Positions 4,195-11,411 of a stretch of DNA of 15,100 nucleotides are shown in pieces. Made by a program: the position numbers and the translations under genes. The stretch is from an uncultured Rikenellaceae bacterium. Its GTDB lineage: Bacteria > Bacteroidota > Bacteroidia > Bacteroidales > Rikenellaceae. The stretch's first letter is position 1. Every line of letters begins with the position of its first letter. The stretch lies in the NCBI GenBank assembly GCA_947037995.1, contig CAMQUV010000008.1:1-15100 (forward strand), in the 5' to 3' direction. Under the pieces are notes generated by a model. The model searched no databases. It was not told where the DNA came from and was given only the letters and a program-made list of their open reading frames with translations.

Positions 4195-4551
4195 AGATAA
4201 ATACTAGTGTGGGTATAAAAGTTAATTCGTCTTACCATTGCGCAAAAATGGTTATAATATGCTAGGCAAAGATAGTCAAAAAAAATAACTTATAATGCAA
4301 TATGTTCGGGGGTTTTAATCTATTTTATAAGAGTATTTGATTGATTGACCAAACTACATCGAAATAAGATTTGAAAATCAATACATTTAGTTTTGTGCGC
4401 GAAAGTTTTAGACATCCTCTCGAAATCGCAAAAATGAACTCTACGAACCCTCTCCATACAATAATTCTAACACATTATTATGCAAGCAAAAAATCCACAT
4501 AAAGACTGTATCTACCTGATTATTAGGTTAACAAAGCGAGCATAGTACTCT
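4195..4551. other. Intergenic region between the arginine deiminase-like gene and the lysE-like gene
   Basis: About 357 A+T-rich bases without a convincing gene on either strand. The left third carries the promoter-like site for the lysE-like gene and a 7-bp inverted repeat around it, both listed separately. From 4332 to 4551 I find no tRNA, no good intrinsic terminator for the upstream gene and no conserved RNA motif. A weak hairpin at 4513-4527 (ACCT/AGGT ends) lacks a following T run in the transcribed direction. The stretch may be the 3' untranslated part of the arginine deiminase-like transcript together with plain spacer. Confidence 0.7.
4267..4301 (-). promoter_or_regulatory. Bacteroidota-type promoter upstream of the lysE-cmk-efflux genes
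   Basis: On the minus strand the -7 element TATCTTTG (4274-4267) matches the Bacteroidota consensus TAnnTTTG perfectly. The best -33 candidate is ATTG (4301-4298), 23 bases upstream, slightly longer than the usual 19-21. A T-rich run lies between them. Transcription would begin near 4260, giving a leader of about 65 bases before the ATG at 4194. No competing site was found closer to the gene. Confidence 0.5.
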
Positions 4552-5820
4552 CTATTTGCGGTAAATTACCTGCGTCATACAGTGGGCTGCGCCATACCCC
4601 TTCGTTAAATTGTGGAGCGGCAGCCACGTAACTTTAACCGAATTTTCTTTGAGTTTGAGTTTAAATTCATCCGACTGTCCCGCCACAGCCATAATTGTAC
4701 GTGGCGCAATCGTAAGGAAATTATTTGCTAAGCGAGATTTGTCTTCCGGTGATACCGAAATTATAGTCATACCCATATCGCGCAATAGCTTAATGAAACT
4801 TATGTCAGCCTCAATTTTCACGTATCTCCCATTGCGCCTGTTATATAGGTCGGCACTAATATATTTTTCATCTCCTTTTTCTGCCAACATTCGTTCCTCG
4901 GCAAGGGTAACAAGGTCTTTATCGATAATATTAAAATAGGTATCGAGATGCATTTCTGCTTGGAAATATCTTACGTCTTTTACCACTACAACCATTTCTG
5001 TTCCAAACACATCTTTCTCCAACATTTGACCAATAGCCTCCCCCGTAGTGCGCATTCCACAGCCAATAAAAGAACAGTTATCAGCAAGTAAGAAATCGCC
5101 ACCCTCTACAAATGCCTTCTCACCTTTCACCTCTAATATTGGTGTTATACCAATTTTGTTGTAGCAAAATTTAATGATTTCACTTTCACTGCGGCGCTGA
5201 GGCGAATTGAGTTTACAAATAATCACACCCCTGGGAGTGGTTATAATTTGGTCTCTTGTGTAAAACAGATTCATCAAAGGATTGTAAGTATAGCTTGCCG
5301 CCACACCCGTATTATGCTCAGTTTCGGTGAGCAGCACGGTGGGTTGTAACAGTATAATATCCACAAGCTCTTCGGCTGTCAATGCTGCAACACACTCTTT
5401 CTTGTAATCATTCTGCTTCATTTGTTTCTCGCAAGAGAGCTTACTTACATCATATTTCAACACGCTAAAAGCAAATTCGCGCAAAGATTTAGTCTCCGCA
5501 CTTTCAATCGTTTCACCGTGCTCATCGATGCAACCCGCCATTAGAACATCTCGTACTAAAAGTGTTTTAATGCCATTTTTATTCAATTCCTTGACATAGT
5601 TTTGGTGTTCTATTTTCGACTTTTTCAAGTTGAAATACTTTTCGAAAAGAGCCGCCTGAGGATGTAGCATACCTAGATTTAATTCGCTACCAGGCTCGTG
5701 TAAAAGGATAGTGTGAGCAGCTGTGTACTCAGAGTCTTGAAAGTGTTTACTGCCACTTGCAAAGCAAAATACAGATGCTATTACAAGAAAAATAGCAGCA
5801 AGAATGATGTTTTTTTTCAT
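4552..5820 (-). CDS. Arginine deiminase-family protein with N-terminal signal peptide (predicted exported)
   Basis: Arginine deiminase hydrolyses L-arginine to citrulline and ammonia. This 422-residue protein keeps the family landmarks in order: ILLHEPGSELNLG (38-50), YTRD with D190, the QRRSE arginine pair (208-212), FVEGGDFL with E239, the MHLDT pair H291/D293, and GYGAAHCMT with the nucleophile C414 near the C-terminus. The catalytic Asp, Glu, His, Asp and Cys residues therefore all appear present. Canonical ArcA is cytoplasmic and about 400-420 residues, but here residues 1-22 read as a signal peptide: basic MKKN, a hydrophobic core, and a possible cleavage site near CFA-S. The cysteine at 19 does not fit a lipobox. 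No ornithine carbamoyltransferase, carbamate kinase or antiporter gene is adjacent, so it does not sit in an arc operon. It stands alone between two intergenic gaps. Agmatine or peptidyl-arginine as substrate is less likely from the motifs but not excluded. Confidence 0.85.
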   Translation of the reverse strand: MKKNIILAAIFLVIASVFCFASGSKHFQDSEYTAAHTILLHEPGSELNLGMLHPQAALFEKYFNLKKSKIEHQNYVKELNKNGIKTLLVRDVLMAGCIDEHGETIESAETKSLREFAFSVLKYDVSKLSCEKQMKQNDYKKECVAALTAEELVDIILLQPTVLLTETEHNTGVAASYTYNPLMNLFYTRDQIITTPRGVIICKLNSPQRRSESEIIKFCYNKIGITPILEVKGEKAFVEGGDFLLADNCSFIGCGMRTTGEAIGQMLEKDVFGTEMVVVVKDVRYFQAEMHLDTYFNIIDKDLVTLAEERMLAEKGDEKYISADLYNRRNGRYVKIEADISFIKLLRDMGMTIISVSPEDKSRLANNFLTIAPRTIMAVAGQSDEFKLKLKENSVKVTWLPLHNLTKGYGAAHCMTQVIYRK

Positions 5821-5897
5821 AAAATTATTTTATTTAATTATACATCCCAAACTAAAGTTCTTAACTTCAGCTTTTACGGTTCATTCTGCAATTTAAT

Positions 5898-5929
5898 CAA
5901 ATTTTATTTAATTCTAACTACTGTACAAA
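5898..5929 (-). promoter_or_regulatory. Weak promoter candidate for the arginine deiminase-like gene
   Basis: On the minus strand a TTTG at 5929-5926 is followed after 20 bases by AAAATTTG (5905-5898), one mismatch from TAnnTTTG. The spacing is right for the Bacteroidota housekeeping sigma factor. It would give a leader of roughly 70 bases. With one mismatch in an A+T-rich region this could be chance. Confidence 0.3.
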
Positions 5930-6051
5930 ATAATATTAATCTAAATTGTATTATCGCCCACGCTAACACAACAGTTAAGTCATTCCCAAATCTCATTTCC
6001 ATATCAACTGCACGCAAGCACTTTTCAGACCTCCCCTCCCAACACACGCAC

Positions 6052-6085
6052 AATAAAAACACCCCTCTCTCGAATCCGAAAGGGG
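6052..6085 (-). terminator. Intrinsic terminator after the mrp-kbl-cysteate synthase unit
   Basis: On the minus strand CCCCTTTC (6085-6078) pairs with GAGAGGGG (6069-6062) to give an 8-bp stem with one G-U pair and an 8-base loop. It is followed directly by TGTTTTTATT. It lies about 50 bases after the stop codon of the cysteate synthase gene, the expected place for a Rho-independent terminator. Confidence 0.82.
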
Positions 6086-6134
6086 GGCGCAATAAATATA
6101 TCTGTCGACCAATTAAACGGCCGAAGCTGCAATA

Positions 6135-7415
6135 CTAAAACAGTTGTTCAACCGCCTTAAGCACTGAATCTTCGCAAGGGTCTACGTCAAAAACGACGGT
6201 CGGTTTAAGATAAAAAATCTTGTCTCCCAACTCTTTTCTCAGTCTTCCCTCGCCTCCTCCAGTGATGTTCAACATAATGCAATCATCCGAATTTACTCTT
6301 CCCGCGTTTACCGCATCAATAAGTGATGCCACCGCAACAGCAGCTGCCGGGTGTATGTCAATGCCCTCAAGTTTTTGGTATATAGCAGCGGCTTCGCGTG
6401 CTTTTTCGTTATCAACGATAACAACATCACCATCACAATCGACCAGCGCATCATAAAGACCGCCGATTATAGCATAAGGTGGTTTTCTATTTGAAAGCAC
6501 TTTAGCATCAATAATTTCCACGTGTCTGCGCGCCTCGTTGTCTTCATACGGAAGCATCTCGCGCGAGTTCGCTTTCCACGCATCGTACATAGGCACAAAT
6601 GGGTGGTTTTGCGAAACAATCAGTTTCATTTTATTGTCTCCAAACCTTCCGTCTTCAATAAATCTCAGGTTCGCCTCCCAAGCCGCAATAGCCCCGGTAC
6701 CACTCCCAACTGCTTGGAAGTAATAGTCTGGAATTTGCCCAATTGTAGTTACAGCCGAGAGTGTCGTTGTAGCCATACCATCACGTCGTGCCACATTTTT
6801 GGCTCCTCCCTCAGCATAGAATTTAGGCGATTTGACCGCTATATTTCCAAGATGAATAGCATCGAAATAGTCCGAGCCAGTACGCGAAGCAATTAGTTTC
6901 ACACAAGGATTTAGCTCCTTCTCGAACCACAGCGCGTCGAGGTTATCTTCGGGAACTGAGAGTAATAGTTTTATATTATTTTCCGAACAGACTTTTGCAA
7001 ACGCACGTGCAGTATTACCAGCCGATGCGACCACGAGTACCCTATCTTCATTCGCCGAGATTCTCCCACCAACAGTATAGCTTTCGGTCTCTTTAAACGA
7101 GCAGGTAGACATATTTGCACCGATTTCGGGGTAGTAACCATTAAAGGTAATCCACAAGTTGGTGAGTCCTAGCTTTTCAGCTAGCCCTTTACTTTTGTAA
7201 GTTACCGGTGCAGCCGAACCTTTCAGCGTACGGCTAATAGGCATCCAATCCGCAAATTTATATATGCCTTCCGTAGGGTCGCCCAGGGTAAGTTGTTTTT
7301 TGTCATATATAGCTCTCACAAGTGAGTGCCCTTCATACTGTGGGTCGTCTAGGACCCAGCCCGTATCATCAAATTCACGCCCCGTAGCAATTGTTTTTAA
7401 ATGGTATTTTGTCAT
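6135..7415 (-). CDS. Cysteate synthase (PLP-dependent, threonine synthase-like)
   Basis: Cysteate synthase converts O-phospho-L-serine and sulfite to L-cysteate and phosphate. It was described in methanogens for coenzyme M synthesis and is related to threonine synthase. This 426-residue protein agrees with my memory of the methanogen enzyme over its whole length: PVTYKSKGLAEKLGL (70-84), TCSFKE with K108 as the likely PLP lysine, SAGNTARAFA (131-140), GGAKNVARRDGM (203-214), FQAVGSGTGAIAAWEA (233-248) with the glycine-rich PLP-phosphate loop, EDGRFG (254-259) and PFVPMYDAW (272-280). These long identities favour cysteate synthase over threonine synthase. Bacteroidota do not make coenzyme M; there cysteate feeds sulfonolipid (capnine) synthesis. 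The gene starts 17 bases after the alpha-oxoamine synthase gene ends and is followed by a terminator, so it is the last gene of the unit. A threonine synthase role is the main alternative. Confidence 0.87.
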   Translation of the reverse strand: MTKYHLKTIATGREFDDTGWVLDDPQYEGHSLVRAIYDKKQLTLGDPTEGIYKFADWMPISRTLKGSAAPVTYKSKGLAEKLGLTNLWITFNGYYPEIGANMSTCSFKETESYTVGGRISANEDRVLVVASAGNTARAFAKVCSENNIKLLLSVPEDNLDALWFEKELNPCVKLIASRTGSDYFDAIHLGNIAVKSPKFYAEGGAKNVARRDGMATTTLSAVTTIGQIPDYYFQAVGSGTGAIAAWEANLRFIEDGRFGDNKMKLIVSQNHPFVPMYDAWKANSREMLPYEDNEARRHVEIIDAKVLSNRKPPYAIIGGLYDALVDCDGDVVIVDNEKAREAAAIYQKLEGIDIHPAAAVAVASLIDAVNAGRVNSDDCIMLNITGGGEGRLRKELGDKIFYLKPTVVFDVDPCEDSVLKAVEQLF

Positions 7416-7432
7416 TATTTTCTTTTCCTTAT

Positions 7433-8620
7433 TTATTTAATTACACCAAGCTCTTGCCCAACTTTTGTAAATGCAGCGATACATTTATCAAGATTTTCGG
7501 TAGAATGCGCCGCCGAAACTTGTACTCTAATACGTGCTTGTCCTTTGGGCACAACAGGGTAATAGAATCCGGTTACATAAATTCCTTCGTCAAAAAGTTT
7601 CGTCGCCATCTCTTGTGAAAGTGGTGCATCATACAGCATCACAGCACATATAGCCGATTGCGTAGGTTTAATATCAAATCCAGCTGCGTTCATTCCCGCC
7701 ACGAAATGTTCTACATTTTGCGCTAATTTATCGTGTAGCGCATCGCTCTCATCCAACATATTGAACATTTCGATAGAGGCACCAACAATAGCAGGTGGTA
7801 TAGAATTCGAGAAAAGGTACGGTCTCGAGCGTTGTCTAAGCAGTTCGATAATCTCTTTGCGCCCAGTTGTAAACCCTCCGACACCGCCGCCAAAGGCTTT
7901 CCCAAGCGTTCCGGTGATAATATCGACGTGTCCACGAACATTAAATTGTTCGGTTACTCCGCGTCCTGTTTTGCCAACTACTCCTGCCGAGTGGCATTCG
8001 TCAACCATAACAAGAGCATCATATTTCTCAGCCAATTCACAGATTTTGTCCATCGGCGCAACATTTCCGTCCATCGAGAACACGCCATCCGTAACGATAA
8101 TTCTAAATCGTTGCGCCTGCGCTAGTTGCAGTTGTTTTTCGAGGTCCTCCATATCAGCATTAGCATATCTATATCTCACAGCTTTACAAAGTCTCACCCC
8201 ATCAATAATCGAGGCGTGGTTGAGCGAGTCAGAAATAATAGCGTCTTGTTCGTTGAAAAGTGGTTCGAAAACACCGCCATTAGCATCAAAACAAGCGGCA
8301 TAAAGTATCGTGTCTTCGGTACCAAAATATTTTGATATAGATTGCTCTAGCTCTTTATGTATGTCCTGCGTTCCGCAAATAAATCTCACCGAGCTCATAC
8401 CAAATCCGTGGCTTTCCATAGCTTGTTGCGCCGCTTTGATAATTCTAGGATTATTGGATAGTCCCAAGTAATTATTAGCGCAAAAGTTCAAGACATCCTT
8501 TCCCTTTACAGTGATTTGAGCATCTTGCGAGCTGGTTATAACTCTTTCTTGTTTATACAATCCAGCTTCGTTGATAGCTTTCAGCTCTTCGAGCAAATGT
8601 TGTTGTAGGTTACCGTACAT
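7433..8620 (-). CDS. kbl: 2-amino-3-ketobutyrate CoA ligase-like alpha-oxoamine synthase
   Basis: A PLP enzyme of the alpha-oxoamine synthase family. Its closest known relative by eye is Kbl (glycine C-acetyltransferase), which with acetyl-CoA and glycine forms 2-amino-3-ketobutyrate, or cleaves it during threonine breakdown. The 395 residues align with E. coli Kbl from end to end: NFCANNYLGL (45-54), SVRFICGTQDIHKELE (77-92), SDSLNHASIIDG with H135 stacking on PLP, MVDECH with D207 and H210, TGTLGKAFGG with the PLP lysine K241, QRSRPYLFSNS (263-273) and YPVVPKGQARIR near the C-terminus. Serine palmitoyltransferase and BioF have different sequences in the last motif. No threonine dehydrogenase gene is next to it, although the two often go together. 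Instead it lies 17 bases before a cysteate synthase gene, which raises the possibility of cysteate as amino substrate. The family is certain, the substrate open. Confidence 0.85.
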   Translation of the reverse strand: MYGNLQQHLLEELKAINEAGLYKQERVITSSQDAQITVKGKDVLNFCANNYLGLSNNPRIIKAAQQAMESHGFGMSSVRFICGTQDIHKELEQSISKYFGTEDTILYAACFDANGGVFEPLFNEQDAIISDSLNHASIIDGVRLCKAVRYRYANADMEDLEKQLQLAQAQRFRIIVTDGVFSMDGNVAPMDKICELAEKYDALVMVDECHSAGVVGKTGRGVTEQFNVRGHVDIITGTLGKAFGGGVGGFTTGRKEIIELLRQRSRPYLFSNSIPPAIVGASIEMFNMLDESDALHDKLAQNVEHFVAGMNAAGFDIKPTQSAICAVMLYDAPLSQEMATKLFDEGIYVTGFYYPVVPKGQARIRVQVSAAHSTENLDKCIAAFTKVGQELGVIK

Positions 8621-8650
8621 AGTATTATTATTTTTTAAAATGTATAATGT

Positions 8651-9697
8651 TTATTTAAAGTTTACAATTTTGTTAGCGATATTCATATATGCTTTAGCAA
8701 TATCACTCTGCTGATTATCAGTCACATACGGCAGACCTTGGTCGCCCCCAGCAGCGATAAATTCGTCGAGCGGTATTTGCTCTAAGACCTCTACTCCACT
8801 CTCCTTCGCAATTTCTTGGGTCTTATCCTTGCCAAATATATAGTAGGTTTTATCCGAGTCAGATGGTTTGAAATAGGCCATATTTTCGACAATTCCAACA
8901 ACAGGAATATTAACGTGCTCGCTTTTGAACAGTGAAATTCCTCGCACTACATCAGCCAGCGCAACCATTTGCGGCGTTGTAACAATGAGTGCCGCATCAA
9001 TTTTCAGTTCACCCACGATTGTAAGGTGTATATCTCCCGTGCCAGGAGGCAGGTCGAGCAAAAGGAAATCAAGTTCTCCCCAAGCTGTTTGGTGGACAAG
9101 TTGTCGAAGTGCCGAAGTGGCCATCGGGCCTCTCCACGCCAACGCATCGTCACCTTTAATAAAGAAGCCAATCGACATAACTTTAACGCCGTGATTTTCG
9201 GCTGGTTGTATCATTTTGCCCTCATTGTCAGAGGGAACAGGCACATAGCTCTCCACGCCAAACATTTTGGGCATAGACGGTCCATAAATATCGACGTCTA
9301 ACACACCAACTTTATATCCCATTTTCTGCAACGAGACAGCCAAATTGGCCGTCACAGTTGATTTACCGACCCCTCCTTTTCCCGAAGAGACCGCTATAAC
9401 TCGCTGTATATTAGATGTTGTGGTATTCTCACGAAGCTCTTTTTGCACCTTCTGTTGTTTTGAAATAGGGGCAGGGTCGCTCACCACGATAGATGTTTTG
9501 AGTCCCATTTTATCTTCCACCGCTCGCTCAATCGCCCTTCTGAGGGGGCTGGCAGCAGGGTCGTGTTTTTTTGGCATTCTCAAAGTCAAGAAAAGCGTAT
9601 CGCCCTCCTGCTTAACAGAGCCAATCATTCCCAATTCTACAATATTTTTTTGCAGCTCGGGATGAATTATAGTCCTTAAAATATCAGTAATTTCCAT
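8651..9697 (-). CDS. mrp: Mrp/NBP35-family P-loop ATPase (iron-sulfur carrier type), cysteine-free
   Basis: Mrp (ApbC) proteins are cytoplasmic ATPases that carry iron-sulfur clusters to target enzymes. This 348-residue protein has an N-terminal DUF59/MIP18-like domain (~1-75; PELQKNIVELGMIGSV), then the deviant Walker A SGKGGVGKS (105-113), LDVDIYGPSMPKMFG (133-147), DLPPGTGDIHLT and GIVENMAYF. The CxxC motif that follows VENMxxF in E. coli and eukaryotic homologues is replaced by KPSDSDKTYYIFGKD, and I find no cysteine anywhere in the protein. The DUF59 cysteine region also reads DPAASPLRR. The protein therefore cannot hold a cluster through its own cysteines in the usual way. As far as I recall, other Bacteroidota Mrp proteins also lack this CxxC. 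It is the first gene of the unit with kbl and cysteate synthase; a good promoter precedes it. Length and domain order are normal. Confidence 0.92.
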   Translation of the reverse strand: MEITDILRTIIHPELQKNIVELGMIGSVKQEGDTLFLTLRMPKKHDPAASPLRRAIERAVEDKMGLKTSIVVSDPAPISKQQKVQKELRENTTTSNIQRVIAVSSGKGGVGKSTVTANLAVSLQKMGYKVGVLDVDIYGPSMPKMFGVESYVPVPSDNEGKMIQPAENHGVKVMSIGFFIKGDDALAWRGPMATSALRQLVHQTAWGELDFLLLDLPPGTGDIHLTIVGELKIDAALIVTTPQMVALADVVRGISLFKSEHVNIPVVGIVENMAYFKPSDSDKTYYIFGKDKTQEIAKESGVEVLEQIPLDEFIAAGGDQGLPYVTDNQQSDIAKAYMNIANKIVNFK

Positions 9698-9753
9698 AAG
9701 TATATTCTATATAAAAAAAGTAATCAAGAGGTTCTTACGAAAGTCTTAGAGTA

Positions 9754-9784
9754 CAAATATAGTCAAAATTTATCACGCACCAAA
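9754..9784 (-). promoter_or_regulatory. Bacteroidota-type promoter of the mrp-kbl-cysteate synthase unit
   Basis: On the minus strand TTTG (9784-9781) is followed by exactly 19 bases and then TATATTTG (9761-9754), a full match to the Bacteroidota -33/-7 consensus. Transcription would begin near 9748, about 50 bases before the mrp start codon. The rest of the 220-base gap between ruvB and mrp holds nothing else I can recognise, and no clear terminator for ruvB. Confidence 0.68.
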
Positions 9785-9917
9785 TAGGTTGTTAAGCTCG
9801 CTAATGTTGTTAATTAAGACCATCGCCGTACTCATATCTACATTATTACAGCAAAAAACTACAGTTAGCCTGAACGTAAATTTAGTCAACTAGCAATCGT
9901 ACAGACGCAATGCAATT

Positions 9918-10925
9918 TTACAATAGCTCTTGCTGTTCAACTTTATTGTAAGCCACGCCCAAATGTTCATAGGCCAACGGAGTAGCTTCGCGACCGCGAG
10001 GTGTGCGCTTAATAAAACCTTCCTGTATCAAGAATGGTTCATAAACCTCTTCGATAGTTCCACTATCCTCACCAACAGCCGTAGCAATAGTTGTAAGCCC
10101 CACCGGACCTCCGCCAAACTTATGGATTATAGTCGACAATACTCTATTATCCATATTGTCCAGTCCTTTTTTATCAATATCCAATGCATCAAGCGCATAC
10201 TTAGTCACTTTCAGGTCAATAATTCCATTTCCTGTAACCATCGCAAAATCACGGACTCGTCTCAACAAAGAGTTAGCAATACGCGGCGTTCCTCGCGACC
10301 TTCCAGCAATTTCGATAGCCGCTTTTTCATCTATCTGTACATCTAATATAGTCGCAGCTCTCAATATAATCTTCTTCAGCGTGACAGCATCATAATATTG
10401 CAGATGGCACTGTATTCCAAACCTAGCTCTCAAGGGGCTAGTAAGCAGTCCACTCCTAGTGGTAGCACCAACAAGCGTGAAAGGCGCCAATTTAATTTGC
10501 ACAGTTCTAGCCGAGGCACCTTTATCGAGCATAATGTCAATTTTATAGTCTTCCATCGCAGAATATAGGTACTCTTCCACAACGGGAGACAGTCGATGTA
10601 TTTCGTCAATAAACAGGACATCACCTTCAGAGAGTGTCGTGAGCAGTCCCGCAAGGTCACCGGGTTTATCGAGAACTGGGCCCGAGGTGACTTTCATAGA
10701 CACACCGAGTTCATTGGATATAATATTCGCCAGTGTAGTTTTCCCAAGTCCTGGGGGGCCGTGTAGCAGAACGTGGTCGAGCGATTCGTCTCTCATAATG
10801 GCCGCTTTGATAAACACTCTTAGGTTATCAACAATTTTATCTTGGCCGCTAAAGGTTTCGAGTGCTTGCGGTCTAATTAGCGTATCAATTTCGCTATCAG
10901 GTTGAACGTCTCTGATTTCGCTCAT
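9918..10925 (-). CDS. ruvB: Holliday junction branch migration helicase subunit RuvB
   Basis: RuvB is the hexameric AAA+ motor that, with RuvA, drives branch migration of Holliday junctions before RuvC cuts them. The 335 residues match the family length. Motifs in order are [14 protein letters not shown] (17-30), Walker A GPPGLGKT (56-63), Walker [10 protein letters not shown] (105-113), [18 protein letters not shown] with sensor 1 and the arginine finger, [20 protein letters not shown] with sensor 2, and the C-terminal winged helix ([17 protein letters not shown] and [12 protein letters not shown]). Nothing is missing or altered. It lies downstream of the ribosomal protein cluster but is separated from it by a strong terminator and has its own promoter candidate. 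ruvA and ruvC are not nearby, which is common in this phylum. Confidence 0.97.
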
Positions 10926-10957
10926 AGTTTGGTGTGTATATAGTTAGTAATTAGTTA

Positions 10958-10990
10958 CAAATATAGTTAAAAAAAAGCAAATCATCCCAA
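10958..10990 (-). promoter_or_regulatory. Promoter candidate for ruvB, overlapping the upstream terminator
   Basis: On the minus strand TATATTTG (10965-10958) is a full match to the -7 consensus. The -33 candidate is TTG at 10990-10988, 22 bases upstream, within the left arm of the terminator hairpin. Transcription would begin near 10951, about 25 bases before the ruvB start codon. The -33 element is weak. Confidence 0.42.
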
Positions 10991-11017
10991 CGTACTTTCA
11001 GTACATTGGGATGATTT
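10969..11017 (-). terminator. Strong intrinsic terminator ending the ribosomal protein cluster
   Basis: AAATCATCCCAA (10979-10990) and TTGGGATGATTT (11006-11017) form a perfect 12-bp inverted repeat, continued after one mismatch by a 4-bp GTAC/GTAC inner stem with a 5-base loop. On the minus strand the hairpin is followed by GC and eight Ts (10976-10969). It lies about 90 bases after the rpsN stop codon. The plus-strand side lacks a comparable T run, so it should act only on right-to-left transcription. Confidence 0.87.
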
Positions 11018-11105
11018 AAGTAAAAAATATTATTTAGCAGTGTTAGTCAAGTAAGTCTTTCACTGTTATATACCAAGTGTTAGCAAGGTAATAAATATTT
11101 AGGTA

Positions 11106-11411
11106 TTACCAGCTAGCTTTTTTGACACCAGGAAGGAGTCCATTAGAAGCCATTTCGCGGAATTGAATACGCGAGAGACCGAAGTATCTCATATATCCTT
11201 TAGGTCTACCGGTGATAGCGCATCTATTGTGCATTCTAACAGGGTTTGAGTTTCTAGGAAGTTTGGCAAGTGCTGCGATGCTTTCATAGTCAAGTTCACC
11301 TTTAGCCGAAGCTTCTTTGATTTTAACTTTAAGGGCAGCTCTTTTCTCCGCAAATTTTTCTACTAGTTTAGCACGTTTCACTTCGCGTGCTTTCATACAT
11401 TCTTTAGCCAT
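11106..11411 (-). CDS. rpsN: Small ribosomal subunit protein uS14
   Basis: uS14 binds 16S rRNA in the head of the 30S subunit. The 101-residue form is the long zinc-free (C-minus) type: it has no CxxC pairs, and the conserved core reads [20 protein letters not shown], ending [11 protein letters not shown]. It follows rplE by 15 bases. It is the last ribosomal gene here; rpsH, which normally follows, is absent and a terminator comes next. A weak 7-bp inverted repeat (11087-11093 with 11104-11110) spans the stop codon. Confidence 0.97.

Follow-up and report, generated by a model that had tools for sequence, protein, structure and literature searches.

Sequence comparison makes it very probable that the window analysed here, which is the whole of contig C8 (15,100 bases) from a draft genome of 1.42 Mb with an estimated completeness of 65.7%, encodes a cysteate synthase whose acyltransferase partner is a SulA-type protein on contig C74, and that the kbl gene beside the synthase is an ordinary one. 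In the mechanism that we propose, the product of 6135-7415 would convert O-phosphoserine and sulfite into L-cysteate in a PLP-dependent reaction, the C74 transferase would use cysteate and acyl-ACP to form 3-ketocapnine, the earliest lipid intermediate on the way to sulfonolipids, and the adjacent kbl would serve ordinary threonine catabolism. The SulA chemistry has been shown in Alistipes finegoldii (PMC9304779), and we infer that the organism studied here, a relative of the gut genus Alistipes, carries out the same chemistry, has a source of sulfite and produces sulfonolipids. As far as sequences can establish it, the three proteins are members of these families and SulA lies outside the window.

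The minus strand of the window carries a series of genes for ribosomal proteins, ruvB, mrp/apbC, kbl, cysteate synthase, an arginine deiminase-like protein, a LysE-family protein, cmk, an RND adaptor and part of an RND pump, the ribosomal proteins and the pump part being assigned by sequence. The kbl gene (7433-8620, minus strand) is an open frame of 395 aa with an ATG start, identified from profile models, solved structures and the residue at the Lys281 position; the cysteate synthase gene (6135-7415, minus strand) is an open frame of 426 aa, also with an ATG start, identified from profile models, a solved structure and a tree. Only 17 bases (7416-7432) separate them, so that the preliminary description of a full-length cysteate synthase-like gene 17 bases after an alpha-oxoamine synthase gene on the same strand was confirmed in its coordinates. 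An mrp/apbC-type P-loop NTPase gene (8651-9697, minus strand) precedes kbl by 30 bases and is the candidate first gene of a transcript covering kbl and cysteate synthase. Pattern matching placed a weak promoter-like site directly ahead of kbl (8624-8653, minus strand) and a terminator-like hairpin with a T-rich tail just 3' of cysteate synthase (6062-6085, minus strand), the latter a pattern match only in a region (4200-11200) where eight terminator-like sites were found against 5.6 expected. A single mrp-kbl-cysteate synthase transcript is thus possible. A search of the window against Rfam returned no match at gathering scores. Two other features of the minus strand were observed: a 19-pair hairpin with a T run behind it at 10978-11018, which separates ruvB from the genes for ribosomal proteins and is likely the terminator of the ribosomal operon, and a gene at 4552-5820 whose arginine deiminase-family product has an N-terminus resembling a signal peptide, scores well under the arcA cut-off and is perhaps an exported relative.

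The identification of the 6135-7415 protein as a cysteate synthase, made in the preliminary description from the letters alone, held up well. The protein scored 471.4 bits with the TIGR03844 cysteate_syn model, against a cut-off of 324.9, residues 4-397 aligning to positions 1-388 of the 398 in the profile. Its closest solved structure was PDB 9k3c, entitled 'Cysteate synthase', matched end to end (residues 2-426) with 634.8 bits, and the second best was a threonine synthase with 35.6 bits. The SFKE segment, which we take to carry the PLP lysine, aligned unchanged to 9k3c. Among the best 120 of 8000 matches, every protein with a name was called cysteate synthase, Rikenellaceae supplying several of these, and a search against its own genome returned a single match, the protein itself. 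On these sequence grounds the protein is a PLP-dependent cysteate synthase of the archaeal-type family (TIGR03844; PDB 9k3c), full length, and it differs from other members only in its genomic place, behind kbl. Alistipes and Odoribacter are reported to use this archaeal-type enzyme for sulfonolipids in place of CapA (PMC10191378). A cysteate synthase, which may or may not be of this family, is reported for Chryseobacterium gleum (PMC11211663).

For comparison, 247 genomes of the order were each filed by their best TIGR03844 match, by which construction classes A and C are disjoint. Class A comprises 67 genomes, of which 66 exceed the cut-off and the remaining one has a partial match of 311.9 bits; class C comprises 47 genomes with matches of 84 to 145 bits, and weaker, threonine synthase-like matches were left out. 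A tree was built of 27 proteins: the window protein, 10 of the 26 other A-type rows, six thrC proteins of the family (one of which, L173, probably starts late) and 10 proteins of class C. The 11 A-type rows, the window protein included, formed one group at 100/100 apart from the six thrC proteins, and class C did not form one group. The highest identity to the window protein in this tree was 70%, with the Rikenellaceae protein L056. In a larger tree without thrC, for which 27 A-type loci were picked (L046 yielding no row), the window protein stood beside six Rikenellaceae-type proteins with modest support (84/61).

That the window lyase might instead be the threonine synthase (thrC) of the organism, the gene pair then making and breaking down threonine, is very unlikely. 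The lyase is distantly related to threonine synthase, and searches for a thrC above its cut-off came back empty for this incomplete genome and for three of the 12 others in the family, one of which (G253) is 98% complete. Against this reading, however, five threonine synthase models scored only 25.2-63.3 bits and none reached its cut-off (167.1-421), the best thrC model giving 63.3 bits against 303 and TIGR00260 24.5 bits against 167.1. A separate thrC above cut-off is present in nine of the 13 family genomes (this one counted), eight of which also carry a cysteate synthase above its own cut-off. A place for the lyase inside the threonine synthase clade, which together with the only thrA/thrB of the genome was one outcome that the preliminary description had named as fatal to its proposal, is contradicted by the TIGR00260 score and by the separate thrC of relatives; on scores, relatives and the 100/100 separation in the tree, we reject thrC as the identity of the lyase.

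The neighbour at 7433-8620 looks like Kbl, an ordinary enzyme of threonine catabolism, when judged against models and structures. It exceeded the equivalog cut-offs of two Kbl (glycine C-acetyltransferase) models, with 689.4 bits against 493 for TIGR01822 and 640.9 against 460 for NF005394, and fell far under the cut-offs of three serine palmitoyltransferase models. The closest solved structure was E. coli KBL (PDB 1fc4; 513.4 bits, residues 1-394), from which it has no visible difference at family level. The structure of SulA (7u7h) and that of another cysteate acyltransferase (28eh) scored 194.5 and 192.6 bits, respectively, placing the window protein in a different subgroup from the SulA/CapB of A. 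finegoldii. Lys281 is the residue reported to distinguish SulA from serine palmitoyltransferase (Radka et al., 2022, PMC9304779), and in the pairwise alignment the window protein has Asn at this position. Because it passes the Kbl models, is nearest to a Kbl structure and lacks the SulA lysine, the window neighbour is not the acyltransferase. It is most likely outside the sulfonolipid pathway and probably an incidental neighbour of cysteate synthase.

A second alpha-oxoamine synthase, which the preliminary description had suggested looking for elsewhere in the genome, was found on contig C74, where its gene adjoins rsmD; with the window kbl it makes two in this 65.7%-complete genome. Two are likewise reported for A. 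finegoldii, namely SulA and the Kbl-like alfi_1465, both of which were expressed and assayed, with a cysteate-dependent product described for SulA only (PMC9304779). The C74 protein passes no NCBIfam model; it scored 706.1 bits with 7u7h and 546.7 with 28eh, and has Lys at the Lys281 position. 7U7H is the A. finegoldii SulA, a proven cysteate acyl-ACP transferase (PMC9304779), with which the C74 protein, encoded outside the window, shares a high score and the diagnostic lysine. By these comparisons the C74 protein is likely a SulA-type cysteate acyl-ACP transferase and the likely partner of the cysteate synthase. Among the 13 genomes of the family, this one counted, 12 have a cysteate synthase over the cut-off and 11 a SulA match.

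At the level of the order, SulA (E of 1e-80 or better) was present in 175 of the 247 genomes, and it was found in 63 of the 67 class A genomes against 112 of the 180 without an A-type synthase (Fisher p 2e-7, ancestry ignored); a match was missing in the other four of class A. It was also present in 40 of the 47 class C genomes. No class A genome had a second match in the class C range, the match list being complete to about 52 bits, and the two classes seem to replace each other. The same kind of count for kbl gave 63/67 in class A against 137/180 in the others (p 0.0009, ancestry ignored). Because kbl is also commoner with the synthase, these counts by themselves give SulA no advantage over Kbl, and it is the sequence tests that single out SulA.

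Gene neighbourhoods were compared over 113 A-type loci, in which at least six genomes are counted twice and of which 100 extend at least 1.2 kb on each side. The genes of kbl and cysteate synthase adjoin in two of the 113, the window and a locus (L053) of a distant genome (G172) with the same order and strand and about 160 bases between the genes; a conserved kbl-cysteate synthase operon is rejected on this count. Eleven further loci of the family showed no kbl beside cysteate synthase, and two family members (G113 and G213) have kbl on another contig or 1.9 Mb off along the contig. SulA did not occur within the examined flanks of any of the 113 loci, and with SulA on C74 the window does not hold a head-group cluster of cysteate synthase and acyltransferase. 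A gene read from its sequence as carboxynorspermidine decarboxylase-like lies near cysteate synthase in at least 10 of 72 sources, all of Alistipes/Rikenellaceae type. Such family counts are lower bounds, since the longest of overlapping ORFs was kept, by which antisense ORFs replace some real genes, and recovery was 60 of 61 loci for SulA and 57 of 72 sources for cysteate synthase. Wu et al. (2024, PMC11211663) report for C. gleum and A. finegoldii that the genes of the reductases form no cluster with those of the synthase and the acyltransferase.

These data bear on two further readings of the gene pair. According to one of them, the window Kbl itself condenses cysteate with an acyl donor and the pair is a cassette for the sulfonolipid head group, for which the 17-base spacing on one strand, the recurrence of the arrangement in one distant genome (G172) and the somewhat higher frequency of kbl with the synthase can be cited. 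Weighed against the Kbl and serine palmitoyltransferase model scores, the Asn at the Lys281 position, an identity of only 29% between the window Kbl and the genome's own SulA, and adjacency in just two loci, this reading is extremely improbable. Moreover, kbl is present in 200 of the 247 genomes, including 48 of the 72 that lack SulA, and the assayed Kbl-like enzyme of A. finegoldii, which we liken to the window Kbl by description and not by sequence, is not the one for which the cysteate-dependent product is described (PMC9304779). We reject the window Kbl as the cysteate acyltransferase on its model scores, its closest structures, the residue at the Lys281 position and the published assay, so that the adjacent alpha-oxoamine synthase proposed as the cysteate user in the preliminary description has to be given up: of the pair said to make and use cysteate, the making half would stay with the cysteate synthase and the using half would pass to SulA on C74. 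The other reading takes Kbl and cysteate synthase as separate enzymes that are co-transcribed for a reason, for example a common response to amino acid supply. The tight spacing from mrp through kbl to cysteate synthase, followed by the terminator-like hairpin, points this way, as does the second occurrence in G172, given that chance should produce only about 0.05 genomes with this arrangement in a set of some 62 others (a rough estimate at about 2,700 genes per genome). It is nevertheless unlikely, for the arrangement is absent from the other 111 loci, G113 and G213 keep kbl elsewhere, and a weak promoter-like site stands just ahead of kbl.

In class C, the places of the synthase and SulA are both listed for 28 genomes, and in 11 of these the two genes share a contig and are no more than about 10 kb apart (a hand count); no such linked pair occurs among the matches listed for class A. 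Twenty class C SulA loci were inspected, 11 of them selected for linkage; ten contain a class C lyase, all from a single family, and seven an APS/PAPS-reductase-like gene, both recognised by domain search, and three contain cysD/cysN-like genes, named by sequence. In L151-L161 this second, distant cysteate synthase-like family is close to SulA, and several of these loci also have genes for APS/PAPS reductase, a glyoxalase-like protein and an SDR, which is likely a sulfate-to-capnine cluster. Class C is probably of the CapA type, a link made by description and context. CapA and CapB of Capnocytophaga have consecutive accession numbers (PMC12927429), and CapA is said to form cysteate from phosphoserine for CapB/SulA and is called only distantly related and unused by Alistipes (PMC10191378). 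At the cut-offs used, a cysteate synthase of either recognised type was missing in 72 of the 175 SulA-bearing genomes, a group that hinges on the 84-bit cut and in which some members have matches of 52 to 68 bits. In 20 of these 72 genomes (L111-L130), SulA was often seen amid housekeeping genes. Labilibaculum euxinus, a producer of capnine lipids, is reported to have a CapA match of only 32% identity (PMC12927429), and a divergent CapA is a possible source of cysteate in the genomes with neither type.

The proposed reaction would also need phosphoserine, sulfite and, after SulA, a reductase. A serC match was found in all 13 family genomes, over the cut-off in seven; in this genome it reached 442.7 bits, just short of 443.6. 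A query SDR, itself a 3-ketocapnine reductase candidate by position only, had matches of 65-72% identity in all 12 other family genomes and a best match of 30% identity in this incomplete one, so the search for a capnine reductase elsewhere in the 65.7%-complete genome, which the preliminary description had also suggested, gave no close match. Among the 60 recovered SulA loci, four have an SDR of one loose family next to SulA and a fifth has one at a greater distance within the cluster, and by position only these are candidates for 3-ketocapnine reductases, which are diverse in published cases (PMC11211663).

With a single query and a limit of E 1e-30, an APS/PAPS reductase match was present in 141 of the 247 genomes and in none of three family genomes searched for it (this one, G113 and G213). 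The place immediately upstream of cysteate synthase is taken in some other Bacteroidales by an Hdr-like cluster, which encodes proteins like HdrA and HdrB, a pair of iron-sulfur proteins and a larger iron-sulfur protein that is membrane-bound by sequence. Such clusters were observed at L050:1747-6588 and in L042, L091, L093, L095 and L097-L104, some of them with a SulP permease following. The family of the large protein, in which domains were found and no NCBIfam cut-off was passed, occurs in at least 13 of 72 sources. Its relatives occur in 76 of the 247 genomes, mostly away from the synthase, as in G113 and G213, and none was seen in this incomplete genome. Within class A, such relatives are present in 13 of 21 genomes without APS/PAPS reductase against 14 of 46 with it (p 0.018, uncorrected). 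In a limited collection of papers, we found none linking cysteate and heterodisulfide reductase in Bacteroidales. The Hdr-like cluster is possibly a sulfite-generating system, which we offer as a lead rather than as a result. A broader proposal would be that sulfonolipid-making Bacteroidales obtain cysteate by at least three interchangeable routes, one of them undescribed, and that lineages without APS/PAPS reductase, as here, get sulfite otherwise, perhaps from an Hdr-like iron-sulfur complex of the kind encoded upstream of cysteate synthase in some relatives; taken as a whole, we regard it as speculative and quite improbable.

More interesting than the gene pair itself are the APS/PAPS reductase gap in three family genomes and the 72 of 175 SulA genomes with neither synthase. 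The window gene is a further instance of the known sulfonolipid pathway in a Rikenellaceae-like genome, and it corrects a tempting misreading, since the acyltransferase is not identified by which gene lies next door. Effects of sulfonolipids on inflammation (PMC11211663) and on choanoflagellate development (PMC3463246) have been reported; because of this reported bioactivity, calling the correct SulA gene matters for the prediction of producers.
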